From the NCBI GenBank assembly GCA_021372575.1, contig JAJFUE010000094.1:1-41255 (forward strand): a stretch of 41,255 nt of DNA. Direction: 5' to 3'. Each line of letters opens with the position of its first letter. Positions within the stretch are counted from its first letter, which is position 1. Shown here piece by piece: positions 11,145 through 21,990 of the stretch. The notes under the pieces were generated by a model, which saw only the letters and a program-made list of their open reading frames with translations, was not told the origin of the DNA and did not search any database. The translations under genes and the position numbers were made by a program. Source of the stretch: a bacterium (GTDB lineage: Bacteria; Sumerlaeota; Sumerlaeia; MVZB01).

Positions 11145-11363
11145 CTACTCTCCAAAAAGAAATAAAGCTGCTGCTACATCAGGAATCCCTGCTCCGTTCA
11201 CGTCAGCATTCATAATGCCGGTGAACGCTTCTGATTCATATGCCACACTGTTTCGATACGATATATTTACATTAACAATTTCTCCAGAAGGCGATCTACC
11301 AAGAATTTTGGGAATTTCGGGGACGTTCGACCATATTTTTTTATCAAAACAGCTCAAGCTCAT
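11145..11363 (-). pseudogene. 3' remnant of a gene fused to a RAYT element end (72 codons)
   Basis: The first ~21 codons (MSLSCFDKKIWSNVPEIPKIL) are translated from the end of the adjacent RAYT element: the same words occur at the end of the third element's frame. Only the remaining ~50 codons (GRSPSGEIVNVNISYRNSVAYES to the end) belong to an older gene, which was apparently truncated when the element inserted. The C-terminus NADVNGAGIPDVAAALFLFG is reminiscent of a calcium-binding dockerin-like repeat, but too short for a call. It ends 2 bases before the ATG of the 236-aa gene. Confidence 0.55.
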
Positions 11364-11727
11364 TTTGATCCTCCTCGGCGGGCTTGGGTTTGCGACCCCG
11401 GCAGCGCGCGCCGACCATCCGGCCGAGCCGCTCTTGTCCTACTGCCTTCGCCAGCGAGTCGGGCCGCCCCGGCCAATAGGTGAACGTGATTGCTCATCAG
11501 CCACCAACCCCAACTCCAAAGCTCCGCGTCGTTGGCCCACACCGCCAGGTCGGCGACGTAAAGCTGGCGGTCGCGGTCGTTGAAGAACACCGTCCGCCGC
11601 TGATTGCCGCGATGCGTCACGTGATACGGGACCCCGGGCAAGACAATGCGCGCCATGCGTGCCATGACTCAGCCTTGATCATGATTCCCGAATTCTCAAG
11701 AAAAAACAATTGGTCGAGCGTCCGTAT
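11316..11727 (-). mobile_element. RAYT element 1 with terminal inverted repeats
   Basis: The left end is TTCGGGGACGTTCGACCA (from 11316). The right end, read in reverse, is ATACGGACGCTCGACCA (ending at 11727). Both are followed by T-rich sequence, which gives imperfect terminal inverted repeats of about 26 bases. The element contains one decayed transposase. Confidence 0.7.
11344..11665 (-). pseudogene. REP-associated tyrosine transposase, internally deleted
   Basis: The N-terminus MARMARIVLPGVPYHVTHRG and the HUH-type motif NHVHLL are intact. After this the frame shifts and about half of the protein is missing. The C-terminal ERLGRMVGARCRGRKPKP to ELELF-stop is recovered in another frame, ending at 11344. 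Compared with the complete 245-residue copy, the catalytic tyrosine region (RYIELNPVRAGLV) has been lost, so it cannot be active. Confidence 0.8.
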
Positions 11728-12254
11728 GCCGAGTGAAGGTGTTCGCGGTCTTGAAGGATGAAAGGAGCCTTCCACGCTAATTGCCTGTTCAGCGTGTAGC
11801 GCCCCATGGGGCGTGTCCGGGCGACCGGAGCGCTCAAGTTCATGGGGTCAAGCCGTCGGCCCGCGAGGGCGCGGCGGCGGCGAAACGACGGGCCGCAACA
11901 ACAGTGAACCCAGGAGAGCCTCGAGAGACTTCAATCCGCAGGTCGAGTCCTTGGACGTTGGGCGAAGGCTGAAACTCCCACGGCCATGCAACGGGCCTCG
12001 ATGCCGGGGAGCTGCGGCGGGGTCGGCGGGGCGGCACGCCGTGAAAGAACGCGAACGCAACTCGGAAGACCTGTCCCGGCGGCGGGGGCGACCCGCGGGC
12101 CGGATCGCATAAGGCCAACACCGAAACCGATGCCGGGCCGGGGCAGGAGTCGGAGGGGTCCATAGTAGCCGCGAAGCGGGGCAACGCCCGTGGAGCCAAG
12201 GGACCCTGGTTGTTCCCAAGCCGGGAAGGAAGGAAAGCACAGGAGGCGATTGTC

Positions 12255-12491
12255 ATGCGCGAGCATCGACTGCGAACGCCCGAAGACAAAGTGCGGAGAC
12301 TTCAGCAACGGCTGAGCCTCAGCGCCAAGCTGGATAAACAGCGGCGCTTTCATCAACGGTTGAGAAAGTGGCTGATGCGACGACGCCAAAGACGCGGGAT
12401 GGGATACTCGCAATATCCCGCGGCACGGCTTTACGAGGCCCTGGGCCTGTATCGCCTGGCAGACCCGGCGGCCCGGCGTCGCGGCGCATGA
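12255..12491 (+). pseudogene. Group II intron reverse transcriptase/maturase, reduced by deletion (78 aa)
   Basis: AGGAGG at 12241 precedes the ATG at 12255. The first ~33 residues (MREHRLRTPEDKVRRLQQRLSLSAKLDKQRRF in essence) match the N-terminus of intron-encoded proteins, where KVRRLQ and KAKA-type segments precede the RT domain. The last ~45 residues (RKWLMRRRQRRG, YPAARLYEALGLYRL) match the maturase C-terminus. RT domains 0-7 are absent, so an in-frame internal deletion of several hundred codons is inferred. The frame remained open. Confidence 0.75.
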
Positions 12492-12512
12492 CTGAGGAAG
12501 AAGGGGAACTCC

Positions 12513-12550
12513 GAAAGCCGTGTGCGGGAGATCCGCACGCACGGTTTGAT
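12513..12550 (+). ncRNA. Group II intron domain V hairpin
   Basis: The 34-nt catalytic hairpin keeps its AGC triad, the internal bulge and the four-base loop GAGA. It is the most conserved part of the intron and anchors the call. Confidence 0.8.
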
Positions 12551-12703
12551 GAGGGGGCGCAGGAGACGGGATGCATGGACTGGCGGCCATTTGCCACGCC
12601 ACCGGAAACGGCCGATACACCGGAAGCCGCCGACCTAAACACACCCGCGCCTGCGCTCTATTCTACCCGATAATTCGAACATTGATGATTTCCCCGATTC
12701 CAA

Positions 12704-13057
12704 TTAAGTTATGTTATCTTTATCTCCTTTACTAAGCATGCGTCGATTTTTCCATAATCTTATATTTCCGTATATTCCAGAAAAAAAAAGAAGCGAATAT
12801 CCAGTTCCCATCAAAAAATAAAATATTATAAACTCTGACAATGTTACATAAAAAAAATGACTACCTTGCTGAAGACGATAGGTTATACCCATTGTTTGGT
12901 TTGGATAAGAACGCGAAGGGTCCAATTCATAACGAAAGAAAAATAATATTGATGCAAACACTAATCCCATCCCCACGGTGCCCACCTTTAAATACATCGT
13001 TTCACTCAATAACCACCGTTTTGCCCTCTGAAGGAAAGCCTTCGCCTCACTGGTCAT
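12704..13057 (-). CDS. Small membrane protein, hypothetical (117 aa)
   Basis: There are two hydrophobic helices (about residues 25-43, VGTVGMGLVFASILFFF, and about 70-93, FYVTLSEFIIFYFLMGTGYSLLFF). The N-terminus is basic and the tail (RLWKNRRMLSKGDK) is charged. AGAGGA is located 6 bases before the ATG at 13057. An eight-codon frame ending in TGA overlaps this start and may be the tail of a disrupted upstream gene: RAYT element 2 inserted about 90 bases upstream. AT-rich relative to core genes. No family was recognised. Confidence 0.6.
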   Translation of the reverse strand: MTSEAKAFLQRAKRWLLSETMYLKVGTVGMGLVFASILFFFRYELDPSRSYPNQTMGITYRLQQGSHFFYVTLSEFIIFYFLMGTGYSLLFFSGIYGNIRLWKNRRMLSKGDKDNIT

Positions 13058-13144
13058 ACTTCATCCTCTTTAGTCATTAAATATATACGCCAATGGGGTA
13101 GTTACCAATCTGGCGCGAATCAGACCTATCTGAATATCGGGGAA

Positions 13145-13971
13145 TATCGGGGACGTGCACTTTATTTAATTTCATTTAAACAACTCCAATTGATTTTCTT
13201 CGTCTTCGCGCCGGGTCGGCTTGCGGCCGCGGCGGCGGGCTCCGACGCTGCGGCCGAGCCGGGCTTCGATCGACTCCGTAAAAGCTTCGTCGCCGCACGG
13301 GCGGCCCGTGTTGGTCGCCTGCCGCAGCCGCTCCATCGCCTCGTCCTCCCCCTCAAGCGCCATGGCCAGCCACGCCGCCCACCCGATCGGTCGCCCATCA
13401 AGCGGGTGGCGCTGCACGCCGCCGAACGGCCGCTCCGGCGCCAGCAGCGGCGCGCCGGCCTGCCCGCCGCCGGTCAAGTGCGCCGCGGCGCTCGACCATG
13501 GCCAATCCTCGGCACGCGCCACCAGCCCGGCCCGCACCGGGTTGAGCTCGATGTATCGGACCGCCGTCCAAAGGTGCGACTCGTCGAGCGGCGTCGAGTG
13601 AAAACGATTTGCCCACAGATGGCCTGTCCAGCCGCGCGGGGCATGCACGCGCCGCGCATGGCGCTGGTGCACCATCCCCACTGCGCGCGCCAGCGAGTCC
13701 GCGCGCCGCGGCACGACCAACAGGTGCACGTGATTGCTCATCAGGCAATAACCCCACACCGACAGCTCCGCGTCGTTGGCCCACACGGCCAGGTCGGCAA
13801 GATAAAGCTGCCGATCGCGGTCGCAAAAGAAAACGTCCCGCCGCTCATTGCCGCGGTGGGTCACATGATACGGCACTCCAGGCAAGACGATGCGCGCCAT
13901 TCGAACCATGCACCAGATTTTCTGAACTCAACGGTTTTCTCAACAAATAAATGAAGTGCACGTCCCCGATT
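13145..13971 (-). mobile_element. RAYT element 2, complete, with perfect 15-bp terminal inverted repeats
   Basis: The left end ATCGGGGACGTGCAC (13146-13160) and the right end GTGCACGTCCCCGAT (13956-13970) are exact inverted copies. Each is followed inward by similar TTTATTT/CATTT sequence. The left end is preceded by a partial duplicate (TATCGGGGAATATCGGGG), as if a second end had been captured. The element holds one intact transposase gene. Confidence 0.85.
13172..13909 (-). CDS. REP-associated tyrosine transposase (RAYT, Y1/IS200-like)
   Basis: A single-strand DNA endonuclease/transposase of the HUH Y1 superfamily. The 245-residue product has the family N-terminus (RMARIVLPGVPYHVTHRGNERR), the metal-binding HVH at residues 60-62 (MSNHVHLL) and the candidate catalytic tyrosine Y119 in RYIELNPVRAGLV. 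WPWSSAAAH follows, then a basic C-terminus (GARRRGRKPTRRE). RAYTs act on REP palindromes rather than as classic insertion sequences, but here the gene is bounded by perfect 15-bp terminal repeats. It is the only full-length copy of four in the window and may mobilise the decayed ones. No strong ribosome site is seen. Confidence 0.9.
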   Translation of the reverse strand: MVRMARIVLPGVPYHVTHRGNERRDVFFCDRDRQLYLADLAVWANDAELSVWGYCLMSNHVHLLVVPRRADSLARAVGMVHQRHARRVHAPRGWTGHLWANRFHSTPLDESHLWTAVRYIELNPVRAGLVARAEDWPWSSAAAHLTGGGQAGAPLLAPERPFGGVQRHPLDGRPIGWAAWLAMALEGEDEAMERLRQATNTGRPCGDEAFTESIEARLGRSVGARRRGRKPTRREDEENQLELFK

Positions 13972-14264
13972 TTCGGGTGGCTCTTGCAAAAGTGTCGAAT
14001 GGAAACGGTCGGATCGGATTGAGCCGCGCCTTCAGCGCTCCATGCTCGGTTGGGCATCCGTGTCCTGGGGCTTCGCTTTGCTGCGCCCCAAGCTGGGATG
14101 AATTCGCGCCTGTGGCGCTTTGGTTATCAGCCAATTCGATTTCGAACACCTCGCACGAGCCTGGAGATAGCGGGAAACCGTTGAAAACGGTTTCCGAGGG
14201 GAAAGGCTGCGCATACCCCGCGTTAAAAACGCGGGGTTACTTCGATCGGGTGATAGCCATGAAT
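13972..14264. repeat. Palindrome-rich spacer between RAYT elements 2 and 3
   Basis: No gene is seen. Two perfect 10-bp-stem hairpins occur: GGAAACCGTT/AACGGTTTCC (14173-14195, loop GAA) and ACCCCGCGTT/AACGCGGGGT (14215-14237, loop AAA). Before them lies a GC-rich segment with TGGGGC...GCCCCA pairing (about 14076-14095). These are REP-like and could be substrates of the neighbouring transposase. Confidence 0.55.
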
Positions 14265-14789
14265 ATCGGGGACGTTTGACCATATATATTTATCAAAACA
14301 GCTCACGCTGGTTTTGATCCTCCTCGACGTGTTTGGGTTTGCGGCCGCGGCGGCGGGCTCCGGCGGTGTGGCCGAGTTGGGCCTCGATCGATTCAATAAA
14401 TGCCTGGTTGCCGCAGGGGCGGCCGGTGTTCGTCGCCTGTCGCAGGCGCTCCATCGCCTCGGTGTCGCCTGCGTGCGCGAACGCGAGCCAGTGCGGCCAT
14501 CCAATCGGCCGGCCGCTGATCGGATCGGGTTGATCGCCGCCGAAAGGACGTTCGGGCGCCAGCAGCGGCTCTCCGGCCTGCCCGCCACCGGTCGCATGTG
14601 CGGCCGTGCGTGACGCTGATGCACCATGCCCACCGCTCGCGTCGGCGAATCCGCCCGCCGCTGATTGCCCCGGTGCGTCACGTGATACGCCACCCCGGGC
14701 AAGACGATACGCGCCATTCGAGCCATGCTGCAGACTCTCTCACGATTCCGAATTTCTCAACAAAATAATAAAAATAGACGTCCCCGTAT
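14265..14789 (-). mobile_element. RAYT element 3, decayed
   Basis: The left end ATCGGGGACGT (14265-14275) and the right end ACGTCCCCGTAT (14778-14789) are inverted copies, flanked inward by A/T-rich sequence as in the other copies. It contains a deleted and frameshifted transposase. Confidence 0.75.
14293..14726 (-). pseudogene. REP-associated tyrosine transposase, deleted and frameshifted
   Basis: The N-terminus MARMARIVLPGVAYHVTHRGNQRR jumps directly to DSPTRAVGMVHQRHAR, so the HVH motif region is deleted. A second deletion removes the catalytic tyrosine region. The C-terminal third (LLAPERPFGG, SGRPIGWPHWLAF, AMERLRQATNTGRPCG, GARRRGRKPKHVEED) continues in a different frame to a stop at 14293. 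It is clearly homologous to the intact copy but inactive. Confidence 0.8.
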
Positions 14790-17960: not shown

Positions 17961-18063
17961 CGTATGTCCTCCTGTAAATTTGCGACCACCATTCTAAACG
18001 CATTTCACTAACACATTGTCAATTCTCTGTCAAGAGATTCACAGCTATTAAGAAAAATATTTC

Positions 18064-18091
18064 TTGACAACCAATATCATTATTGTGTAAG
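18064..18091 (+). promoter_or_regulatory. Promoter of the AT-rich three-gene cassette
   Basis: A perfect -35 box TTGACA (18064-18069) is followed after 16 bases by TGTAAG (18086-18091). It points to the gene at 18148 and gives a leader of about 50 bases. Confidence 0.6.
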
Positions 18092-18147
18092 CTCACGCAG
18101 TTGTAATAAAAAATCTTCTTAACATGGAAGAAAGAAGCTTTTCTAGC

Positions 18148-18954
18148 ATGAAGAACACTATTCAAATCGGCGTAGTTGTGTTATTTGCCATTATCAACAT
18201 TTCGGCTCATGCTGAGCAAAATTATTGGAAAGAGGAGGAAACCAGTTTGCGATCGGCGAGTAAGCCGCATTCCAACCTTGTTAACAATGGTAACCTGATA
18301 ATCAATCCAAGCGGCGATTCCACCGCAACATTATCATCCTGCACCGCCAATGGTAGCATCGAAGTATATGCAAAACAGACTACTGCAACCGGTTATTCGA
18401 ATGGAAATGCGAGTTATACCTATCAAAAATCAGTAACATGGATTGGTCCGGATCCAGCACCGTGCAGATCTTTAAGTTTTACCGCGACAGGAGGCGGTAG
18501 TGAATCTGTTACCGTAACGTGTGCTGTAGGTGCAGGCTGTTCGTCATCAGTGTCGGCAGCTGGAAGTGGAAATTGTTCATCGCTCGGGAATGCAAGTGCA
18601 GGCCTCGCAATGCAGTCGATTTCAATTAGTGCCCAATATAGCGGTGCGACACAGCAAGTTGATATGTCAGGAGCATTTGGTGCGACTGTGAATGTAAATG
18701 AACCTGGGGCCAGTGTTACTGGTTCTTTTAATGGTTCATCCAGCTGGTCAACGTCTGGCACGGGATCTAAATCCGGATCTGCAAGTTACTCTGTGAAAGC
18801 GGATCGGAGTTATAATGCTAACACGAGTAGCAATTATACACGATCCCGTAGTGGTAATGTGACAATCACTTCCAGCGCAACGGCGGAGTCCGCTAGCGAA
18901 AACGGGAAAACTGCTCTGGGTGCAGCAAGTTCAATGGTGAATATTTCGATTTGA
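18148..18954 (+). CDS. Exported Ser/Gly/Thr-rich protein, hypothetical (268 aa)
   Basis: The ATG at 18148 gives an immediate signal peptide (MKNTIQIGVVVLFAIINISAHA), whereas an upstream in-frame ATG at 18124 has no ribosome site and adds a polar leader. The mature protein is low in charge and dominated by Ser, Gly, Thr, Ala and Asn. It has beta-strand-like alternation and several cysteines (SSCTANG, PAPCRS, TCAVGAGCSS, GNCSSLG), which suggests a secreted beta-rich or adhesin-like surface protein with disulfides. No family was recognised. It is the first gene of a cassette much more AT-rich than its neighbours. The intergenic hairpin at 18973-19020 follows directly. Confidence 0.72.
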   Translation: MKNTIQIGVVVLFAIINISAHAEQNYWKEEETSLRSASKPHSNLVNNGNLIINPSGDSTATLSSCTANGSIEVYAKQTTATGYSNGNASYTYQKSVTWIGPDPAPCRSLSFTATGGGSESVTVTCAVGAGCSSSVSAAGSGNCSSLGNASAGLAMQSISISAQYSGATQQVDMSGAFGATVNVNEPGASVTGSFNGSSSWSTSGTGSKSGSASYSVKADRSYNANTSSNYTRSRSGNVTITSSATAESASENGKTALGAASSMVNISI

Positions 18955-18972
18955 ATTATGGTGGTAAAATTA

Positions 18973-19020
18973 TTAAATGTATCCTGCGAAGGCGTCACCG
19001 CCTTAGCAGGATACATTTAA
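18973..19020 (+). promoter_or_regulatory. 48-nt near-perfect hairpin between cassette genes 1 and 2
   Basis: Arms of 22 bases (18973-18994 and 18999-19020) pair along their whole length except for one G/A mismatch, around the loop TCAC. No U-tract follows, so it is more likely an mRNA-stabilising or processing structure, or a partial attenuator, than a simple terminator. Confidence 0.65.
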
Positions 19021-19040
19021 AATGCAAGAAAGGGTTAAAT

Positions 19041-20813
19041 GTGCCCTGGTTAAGGTTCATAGTGTCATTGTTGATTGTGGCTTTCTGTTTCGAATCATTA
19101 GGTCTCGAATGTCGTTGCGAACCTCTCACGACGACAGAATCACTCGTTATTGTAAAAGATCAAGTTAATAGAAAGGTGGAAAGAATTAAAAAAGATATTC
19201 AATATAATTATGAAATGAGAGACAGGTCGAACCTTTTATTAAGAAAAGAAGCGGTAGACACGTTTCTCCTCCCGATTTATGTGATCATGGAGTTGCAGGG
19301 TGACAAGTCTATTGATTTGTTCAGGCATTTTCGATACAACTATAATAAGGAGTGTAATACCACAACTAAAATAAATCATAATATACATGCCCAACTCGAC
19401 AAATCAGTTGAATTTCTAAAATGCAATAATATGGAAGGAATAAAAGCGCAAATATTTTCATGCTCTTACCCATATCGAGGTGCAGATTATCCGTTAATTA
19501 TGTCGGGTTCTGCGTTTATTAGCAAAGATAAGTACGTTTACAATATAGAATGGTATGAGCCTTATTTGGCCAATAGAGATTTAGTTTTCCCGGTTCACCC
19601 GGAAGATCTCACGATTGATTGGGATGGAAATAGACTATGCATGTATGTTAGGGAAACCAATGAAGAGCCGATTGTTGAATATCGAAAATATTCCGGTCCG
19701 GTATTTAATAATCCAGAGAAATTATATAGTGTATATGATTCTACAAGCTTAATTCCATTTATGCAGATAAATGTAGAGGATTGTTCAAATAAAAACAATA
19801 AGTATTATACTTATATGAATAATCAGATAATACGGGATACGGAGTTGAAGTGGGAGGGTGGGTTGATTAAAGAAATTGTTGTTAATCAGTATCCCATTCA
19901 ACTTCGGCATGTTTCGGATGAGGTGTTCAATATAAAAAGGGAAATTGATGGAAGTGAATATAAAACAGAGGATTATTCGCCTCAAATGCAGGTGAATTAT
20001 CTAGAGTCGGGACGTGAGTTGCGGTTTTTGTTTGAGAGTGCAAGGCGTAATGAAAGGCGCGTAGTAATCCCAAGTATCTTAAAAATGTACTTGAAAAATA
20101 GTTTGCTATTTGAAGGCAGGTATGATAATTTCACTAAAGTTGACGCAGTACATAAGGCTGTTGAAATGCGACAACAAGATAGGGTTGAGGTTGAGGTTGA
20201 AAGAAGGGATATGAAAAGCCTCTATGTGGATATAGTGCAAAAAGCAAAATATCCACGAATTAGATACAGGGGTTTGGATGAGATTCATAATTCAAGTTCG
20301 GGATTGATGAAGAGAAAGAAAATAAAATATAATGCATATGCGGCAATACTTATGCGGGATAACGATCAATTAAGTAAGACCTTGGTTGAATATAAAAATA
20401 TATTGCATGATTCCAATGTAAGCATGGATTTTTACATATTCTCGCTCGAAGCGTTGGCTCAGATGGCGTATGAACATATCGGCGATGATGCCGGTTGGAT
20501 GGTTGCAAATACATTTCTGGCAAATGCTTATGCCGAATGTTCTCCAGATGAGCTTCAATTCCATGTGTACAGATTAATTGACCAATGTCGTTTGGGATTT
20601 GCGCTTATGGCGGTAGATGTCTATGCATCAAGAAACGGGGACTGTTCGTCTAAAAGTTGGGTGAATGAGCTAAGAGAATCTGTCAATCAAATGTATGTTG
20701 CCCCAGATTCAATAAAGCAATGGGTCAATTATCCCTACTATAATCAACAAATGGTGGTCAATATGAAAATAAAAAAAATGAGGGAGGAGCAACATCGTGC
20801 AGTTGCGAAGTAA
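19041..20813 (+). CDS. Exported protein of unknown function (590 aa, GTG start)
   Basis: The GTG at 19041 is preferred to the frame's first ATG (18951). The ATG would translate the hairpin, while GTG has an AAAGGG site about 7 bases upstream and opens a signal peptide (PWLRFIVSLLIVAFCFESLG). The mature protein is large, soluble and rich in Tyr, Asn, Arg and Glu. It has a mixed alpha/beta middle (YPLIMSGSAFISKDKYVYNIEWYEPY, LTIDWDGNRLCMYVRE) and a helical C-terminal third (LVEYKNILHDSNVSMDFYIFSLEALAQMAYEHI). I recognise no domain. It overlaps the next gene by 17 bases, so the two products are probably made together. The gene is strongly AT-rich. Confidence 0.75.
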   Translation: MPWLRFIVSLLIVAFCFESLGLECRCEPLTTTESLVIVKDQVNRKVERIKKDIQYNYEMRDRSNLLLRKEAVDTFLLPIYVIMELQGDKSIDLFRHFRYNYNKECNTTTKINHNIHAQLDKSVEFLKCNNMEGIKAQIFSCSYPYRGADYPLIMSGSAFISKDKYVYNIEWYEPYLANRDLVFPVHPEDLTIDWDGNRLCMYVRETNEEPIVEYRKYSGPVFNNPEKLYSVYDSTSLIPFMQINVEDCSNKNNKYYTYMNNQIIRDTELKWEGGLIKEIVVNQYPIQLRHVSDEVFNIKREIDGSEYKTEDYSPQMQVNYLESGRELRFLFESARRNERRVVIPSILKMYLKNSLLFEGRYDNFTKVDAVHKAVEMRQQDRVEVEVERRDMKSLYVDIVQKAKYPRIRYRGLDEIHNSSSGLMKRKKIKYNAYAAILMRDNDQLSKTLVEYKNILHDSNVSMDFYIFSLEALAQMAYEHIGDDAGWMVANTFLANAYAECSPDELQFHVYRLIDQCRLGFALMAVDVYASRNGDCSSKSWVNELRESVNQMYVAPDSIKQWVNYPYYNQQMVVNMKIKKMREEQHRAVAK

Positions 20814-21990
20814 TAATCAATTTGCCAACTATGGCATTTGCTTGTTAGTAATTATTATTTTTGTAAATGCATACTCTGTGGACGCCGCATTATTGCAAAA
20901 TATGGTAAAACGAGCTGTGGACCAATATCCGGAGTTGCCTCCCGAGCAAAAGACTCTAATATCGAATATGATTTTAAACAAACTACCAGAAGCATTAGAA
21001 ATAAGTGGCGATAAAGAAGGCGTGTTTAATGATCAGTTCAGTTATTATTTGCATGATGAAATGCCCAATCTGGGTTCCGCCGCGGGTGAAGAATTAGATT
21101 TTAATGTAGATGTGATTGCATGGTCATTAAAGAATTATTATACTCTACCTTCAATAAATGAACAAGATCGCGCGAAAGCACGACAAGTGTTTATGAATAC
21201 AGACTCGGGAGTCAGGTTGTATATTCAAAGAGAGTATGTTGATACTCCCCGAGATATTCAGAACAAAATAGCGGATCTCATTAAGAAGAAATATGAGTCG
21301 ATGAGACCGAAAATCGGAAATTATTTCTTTCCCTCATGGTTAAGGATATCTGGTCCATCGCCAGAAAAGGATGTAATATATCAGCATCTGAAAGAACATC
21401 CCTTTCTGAGTAATAAGGCCAAGGCTTACGAATCAGTCAAAACTATTCTTGGCGACACGTCATTGCCCATGGATTCCCGCAAGGTGCATGTCGACTTCTT
21501 TATAAACAGAGAGGCAAATTTAATATCAAGCGCTTTACTCACAATGATGCTAAAAAGTTACGATCTCGAATTGTTTACAAGAGACAAGCAATATATCGGG
21601 TGGACAAAGGAAATGTATGAGAGAGGAGCAAGGATCGCTGCATTGCGTAGTAAAGAGGCTGAACGGGCGGTTCGTGATCATCAATCCAGATCTGAATTTC
21701 AAAGAATTAAAAGCAGGATAATGCAAGACGCCCCTCTCATCACAGGGGATAATATGGTTCTTCTCCGAAAATCGGGAACTACCGATACTATACAAGTGGC
21801 AACAAGTGTGGTAGTCACTTCTATAACAAAAGAGAAGTCAGCATATGTATCTATCCAGACACAATCTCCGCGTTCAGATAATATAGTCCGAAAAAAACAC
21901 TCATTCACATATTTGACTTCGCTAATCGTGTGCACAATCACATTAATCGCAATATTCATTCGAAGGAAAATGAAAAGGCACGGGATCTAA
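20797..21990 (+). CDS. Exported protein with C-terminal membrane anchor, unknown (397 aa)
   Basis: The GTG at 20797 has an excellent GGGAGGAG site 7 bases upstream, inside the end of the previous gene. The N-terminus is a signal peptide (ICLLVIIIFVNAYSVDA). The mature domain is mostly helical and charged. Near the C-terminus a single hydrophobic helix (about residues 369-388, FTYLTSLIVCTITLIAIFI) is followed by a basic tail (RRKMKRHGI), so the bulk of the protein is held outside the inner membrane. This resembles anchored or sorted surface proteins, but no sorting motif such as LPxTG or PEP is clear. No family was recognised. Confidence 0.75.
   Translation: MQLRSNNQFANYGICLLVIIIFVNAYSVDAALLQNMVKRAVDQYPELPPEQKTLISNMILNKLPEALEISGDKEGVFNDQFSYYLHDEMPNLGSAAGEELDFNVDVIAWSLKNYYTLPSINEQDRAKARQVFMNTDSGVRLYIQREYVDTPRDIQNKIADLIKKKYESMRPKIGNYFFPSWLRISGPSPEKDVIYQHLKEHPFLSNKAKAYESVKTILGDTSLPMDSRKVHVDFFINREANLISSALLTMMLKSYDLELFTRDKQYIGWTKEMYERGARIAALRSKEAERAVRDHQSRSEFQRIKSRIMQDAPLITGDNMVLLRKSGTTDTIQVATSVVVTSITKEKSAYVSIQTQSPRSDNIVRKKHSFTYLTSLIVCTITLIAIFIRRKMKRHGI

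Follow-up and report, generated by a model that had tools for sequence, protein, structure and literature searches.

The window analysed here is a 41,255-nt stretch of bacterial DNA, in which three plus-strand genes form a cassette between a minus-strand gene for a GH109-type Gfo/Idh oxidoreductase and dnaE. The cassette, referred to below as copy 1, contains the following features.

18064 to 18091, plus strand: promoter- or operator-like box, TTGACA-N14-TGTGTAAG, lying 5′ of g1 and common to copy 2 (see below)
18148 to 18954, plus strand: g1, encoding an exported, Ser/Ala/Gly/Thr-rich protein of 268 aa, a putative secreted substrate
18973 to 19020, plus strand: hairpin between g1 and g2, a 22-bp inverted repeat with a loop of 4
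19041 to 20813, plus strand: g2, with a GTG start, encoding an exported soluble protein of 590 aa
20797 to 21990, plus strand: g3, with a GTG start, encoding a helical protein of 397 aa, a putative membrane-anchored helper

The three reading frames are where the initial annotation had placed them, and all three products carry the N-terminal hydrophobic, export-type segments claimed for them. The abrupt compositional shift that it described also holds, as GC content goes from 0.61–0.64 in the oxidoreductase gene to 0.35–0.48 in the cassette and then to 0.59–0.66 in dnaE. GC3 is 0.375, 0.362 and 0.379 for g1, g2 and g3, respectively, against 0.872 for the oxidoreductase and 0.913 for dnaE. The reported overlap of g2 and g3 is indeed 17 nt (20797–20813), with GGGAGGAG just 5′ of the g3 start codon, and AAGAAAGGG lies 5′ of the g2 start codon. 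No secretion genes were found near copy 1. An exact 14-nt direct repeat, GGCACGGGATCTAA, is present inside g1 (18757–18770) and again as the last 14 nt of g3 (21977–21990), which may be due to chance. Elsewhere in the window, one intact and two truncated transposase genes of the Y1, REP-associated type lie on the minus strand at 11360–14726, all starting M-RMARIVLPGV-YHVTHRGN. Group II intron pieces lie on the plus strand (RF02003 D1–D4 at 11752–11903 and RF00029 at 12513–12704), with no maturase-sized open reading frame between them.

The g1 product starts with MKNTIQIGVVVLFAIINISAHA-EQ and has a signal peptide at about residues 1–22. It is rich in Ser, Gly and Thr with several Cys, as first read (S 20%, A 12%, G 10%, T 9%, five Cys), and is also rich in Tyr and has few charged residues. 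The g2 product contains a conserved WYEPYLANR in its middle region, and its C-terminal third could be helical-repeat-like, as far as the secondary structure in a model of low confidence shows. In g3, the C-terminal membrane anchor is confirmed as a hydrophobic segment at residues 369–392 followed by an IFIRRK tail, and the N-terminal hydrophobic segment resembles a cleavable signal.

No convincing domain was found for any of the three proteins in Pfam, NCBIfam, PHROGs, PADLOC or PDB, in agreement with the first reading, and their families are undescribed in the libraries searched. Two weak Pfam matches, GramPos_pilinD3 (E = 0.019) and Glyco_hydro_17 (E = 0.0065), both fell below the cut-off and were rejected. 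AlphaFold2 without homologues gave models with pLDDT of 35–38, too poor for fold comparison or a chaperone-fold test. The cassette is an orphan three-gene exported unit that is invisible to standard family libraries.

The genome of the window (4.63 Mb, 95.6% complete, 1.9% contaminated) contains the cassette twice, a key feature that, like the hairpin between g1 and g2, is absent from the initial annotation. When its own genome was searched with g2, a full-length homologue was found (g2′, P0005; E = 7.6e-68, 29% identity). It belongs to copy 2, at 42763–46658 of contig C132, where the order g1′-g2′-g3′ is as in copy 1 and the frames are likewise intact. g2 and g2′ are 29–31% identical over about 540 aa, with a Smith–Waterman z of 101 against shuffled sequences. 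Directly 3′ of g2′, overlapping it by 1 nt, is g3′ (P0006), which was independently found with g3 (E = 1.1e-8) and shares 20% identity with it (z = 17). Translation of g3 is coupled to that of g2 through this overlap, whether of 17 nt or of 1 nt. Both g3 and g3′ end in a hydrophobic segment, residues 344–368 in g3′, and then IFIRR and basic residues.

Directly 5′ of g2′, a signal-peptide protein is encoded (g1′), which was not retrieved with g1 as the sole query. The two align at about 22% identity across about 230 residues and share C, TW-G--P--CR and SY positions, giving a z of 4.8, a score reached in 0 of 1000 global and 3 of 1000 local shuffles. From the three z values, g2 and g3 are certain homologues of their copy 2 counterparts, and g1 is a probable one. 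Judged from these alignments, g1 is among the fastest-changing parts of the cassette.

In both copies g2 and g3 adjoin g1. With identities of 29% (g2), 20% (g3) and about 22% (g1), the kept adjacency is unlikely to have persisted by chance. The layout is retained at 20–30% identity while g1 and g3 are free to diverge, which argues that the three parts have been selected together as one exported unit. A three-gene export unit that is under selection and occurs twice in this genome is well supported.

The initial annotation proposed a secreted substrate with a periplasmic and an anchored helper, to be supported by g2–g3 adjacency across distant genomes with a variable g1 and refuted if no genome held g2 and g3 together. 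The pair is present twice, and its adjacency is kept beside a variable g1 in the diverged copy 2, in the same genome; no other genome searched has it. The proposal is thus supported in part, and the biochemical roles come from inference. By analogy, g1 probably encodes a secreted protein that evolves fast and is produced in excess, with g2 as a periplasmic and g3 as a membrane-anchored helper.

Searches for g2 homologues, with g2 alone or with a two-sequence profile, found none in 98, 40 and 386 genomes, the 386 being relatives, and none in plasmids, phages and viral contigs. The g3 profile gave two marginal short matches in the 386 genomes, at the level expected by chance. A search of genome contigs for related loci found none; pattern scans covered 85,000 species but are insensitive, so that distant relatives may exist elsewhere. 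Fourteen WYEPY-pattern matches in genome contigs were rejected as chance by profile search. Synteny with relatives was uninformative, as one contig ends upstream of dnaE and the other holds unrelated genes. The contig assignment of copy 1 looks sound, because the adjoining dnaE shares 65–67% identity with its counterparts in the two genomes from the same family.

An alternative is that the cassette is AT-rich foreign cargo, brought in twice from a phage, plasmid or mobile element, and has either no function or one that does not concern secretion. GC3 across the cassette genes, at 0.36–0.51 against 0.79–0.91 for host genes, would fit such an origin, as would the absence from all relatives searched, two of the same family among them, and the transposase remnants and group II intron 4–7 kb upstream. 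However, the cassette ends lack a mobility gene or terminal repeat, and phages, plasmids and viral contigs give no match. Moreover, recent neutral insertion cannot account for two copies that share 29% identity and both keep their frames intact. We consider foreign cargo quite unlikely.

Copy 2 begins 355 nt 3′ of a complete type II secretion system (T2SS) operon on the same strand, with the gene order I-J-G-K-L-M-C-like-D-E-F-H. Secretin (5.9e-35), ATPase (T2SSE, 1.2e-128), platform protein (T2SSF, 1.1e-56) and pseudopilins are thus found in one operon. The T2SSK, T2SSM and N_methyl matches are weaker, and pseudopilin G (L079:1445-1882) was recognised because it resembles the T2SSG protein of L072. 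Genes divergent from the T2SS operon encode exported TPR and beta-helix proteins, an ECF sigma factor accompanied by a zinc-finger anti-sigma-like protein, and a MauE-thioredoxin-like protein. This rare T2SS island (L006:186-10409 and L038:11525-19495) has about 47–55% GC and its own ECF sigma factor. A comparably close relative of the secretin was found in 1 of 40 genomes of the phylum (G034, a member of the same class, 42% GspD identity), in a similar operon.

T2SS carries proteins out of the cell after they have folded in the periplasm. With copy 2 adjoining such a system, a T2SS substrate with its chaperones becomes the leading hypothesis, and the MauE-thioredoxin-like protein in the island would suit Cys-containing substrates. 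The operon is also the sole concrete functional lead; the surface display or envelope modification offered in the initial annotation found no specific support. Several observations count against a T2SS role. Of the two copies, one adjoins T2SS, so that the link rests on one adjacency, and the G034 operon has a MauE protein alongside but no cassette. In addition, copy 2 seems to have its own upstream box and may therefore be transcribed apart from the T2SS operon, the Cys count of g1 is odd, and the searches gave no homologue in other genomes that would strengthen the pattern.

A small, patchily distributed operon with a fast-diverging g1, one copy of which is close to a secretion machine, could also be an antagonism unit, in which g1 would act against other bacteria after secretion and g3, perhaps together with g2, would be a membrane-anchored immunity or processing factor. 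We find this highly improbable, since no toxin or immunity family is matched, a conserved 590-aa partner is unusually large for immunity, and g1, as the member of low complexity, is not a compact domain.

The hairpin between g1 and g2 has a folding energy of −32 kcal/mol (z = −5.6). At the equivalent place between g1′ and g2′, copy 2 has a hairpin whose 15-bp stem is perfectly paired and whose loop is of 3 (−33 kcal/mol, z = −5.8). The two hairpin sequences are unrelated, and no other occurrence of the copy 1 arm was found in the genome, indicating that position is conserved and sequence is not. REP-type dispersal of the copy 1 hairpin was rejected, as its arm occurs at that site only. A simple intrinsic terminator was also rejected; with no T run following the stem on the plus strand, a role in stabilisation, processing or partial stopping fits better.

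The hairpin after the first gene, which suggests an excess of g1, also fits an alternative, a surface-structure system independent of T2SS, with g1 as a fibre, sheath or matrix subunit and g2 and g3 as periplasmic and membrane assembly factors. The Ser/Gly/Thr/Tyr-rich, fast-evolving, low-charge g1 would suit it. Secretion operons for curli- or Fap-like fibres likewise encode a small exported, structural-looking subunit and exported accessory proteins. In contrast to those operons, neither copy of the cassette has a gene for an outer-membrane channel, pore or secretin, g1 lacks repeats of the fibre-subunit type, and copy 2 adjoins T2SS. A T2SS-independent surface structure is accordingly rated unlikely.

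The box 5′ of g1′ is TTGACA-N14-TGTGTCAG at L006:10709, giving the shared pattern TTGACA-N14-TGTGTMAG. At up to one mismatch, this pattern has two sites genome-wide, one at each cassette, although these two sites served to define it. In the 160-nt upstream stretches, 9 of 1000 shuffles gave an equally good two-block match, and TTGACA occurred in both stretches in 13 of 2000. The common box is thus suggestive of a control element. For the claim that the cassette has its own promoter, this common box is the sole support: TTGACA at 18064 lies within it, but no sigma-70 site near 18064 passed a generic scan, and promoter-like sites in the region are at chance level (13 found, 14.3 expected). Between the divergent oxidoreductase gene and g1, TGTCAA/TTGACA hexamers cluster at 18008–18069, possibly as a shared operator, and a minus-strand TTGACA-N12-TGTGTTAG in the cluster points toward the oxidoreductase.

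The best explanation as a whole is that of an export unit whose product leaves through T2SS, to which we tentatively assign a probability of roughly 0.42. First, g1 would be transcribed from the shared type of upstream box and its product exported by Sec. Second, the g1–g2 hairpin would protect the end of the g1 message or pass only part of transcription onward, setting g1 in excess over g2 and g3. Third, in the periplasm, the large, soluble g2 and the helical, anchored g3 would be devoted to folding or escorting the Cys-containing g1 product. Finally, the g1 product would exit via the T2SS next to copy 2, which would serve copy 1 in trans. A bolder form, which we regard as doubtful, is that the cassettes represent an undescribed class of T2SS accessory, in which a soluble g2 and a C-terminally anchored g3 prepare a fast-evolving family of Cys-containing substrates with the excess set by a position-conserved hairpin.

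The way in which T2SS recognizes substrates has long been an open question, and few of these substrates are known to have dedicated chaperones. With two paralogous cassettes in one genome, each matching a helper pair to a diverged substrate, partner specificity could be probed by helper swapping.

Among known systems, the cip-cel cellulosome operon has its stoichiometry set by intergenic stem-loops (PMC4423207). In that operon, as in the cassette, a stem-loop of high stability immediately follows the gene for the first, presumably abundant, extracellular component. The cassette differs in that the hairpin is seen at two loci rather than in a family-wide series, and in that no cellulosome component is encoded.

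Some T2SS substrates need dedicated membrane-anchored chaperones, which are encoded alongside them and have no mutual sequence similarity (PMC4713064). In the lipase/Lif foldase and CpaA/CpaB pairs (PMC4713064), as in the cassette, the gene for a Sec-exported substrate lies beside that for a membrane-anchored, periplasm-facing helper, with T2SS in the same genome. What g3 has in common with those helpers is location, not sequence, as no lipase chaperone match was found for g3 (Pfam, E ≤ 1) or g3′ (Pfam, E ≤ 0.1), nor in NCBIfam. The class is defined by an N-terminal transmembrane domain and a periplasmic C-terminal region, together with a requirement in secretion (PMC4713064), whereas the clear anchor of g3 is C-terminal, and g3 would conform only if its N-terminal segment stayed uncleaved. 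Because an N-terminal anchor is not clearly present, we do not class the cassette with the T2SS chaperone cassettes. Unlike either pair, it also has an extra large soluble partner, g2. By analogy, the cassette would work like a substrate–chaperone cassette, yet stand outside that class by definition.
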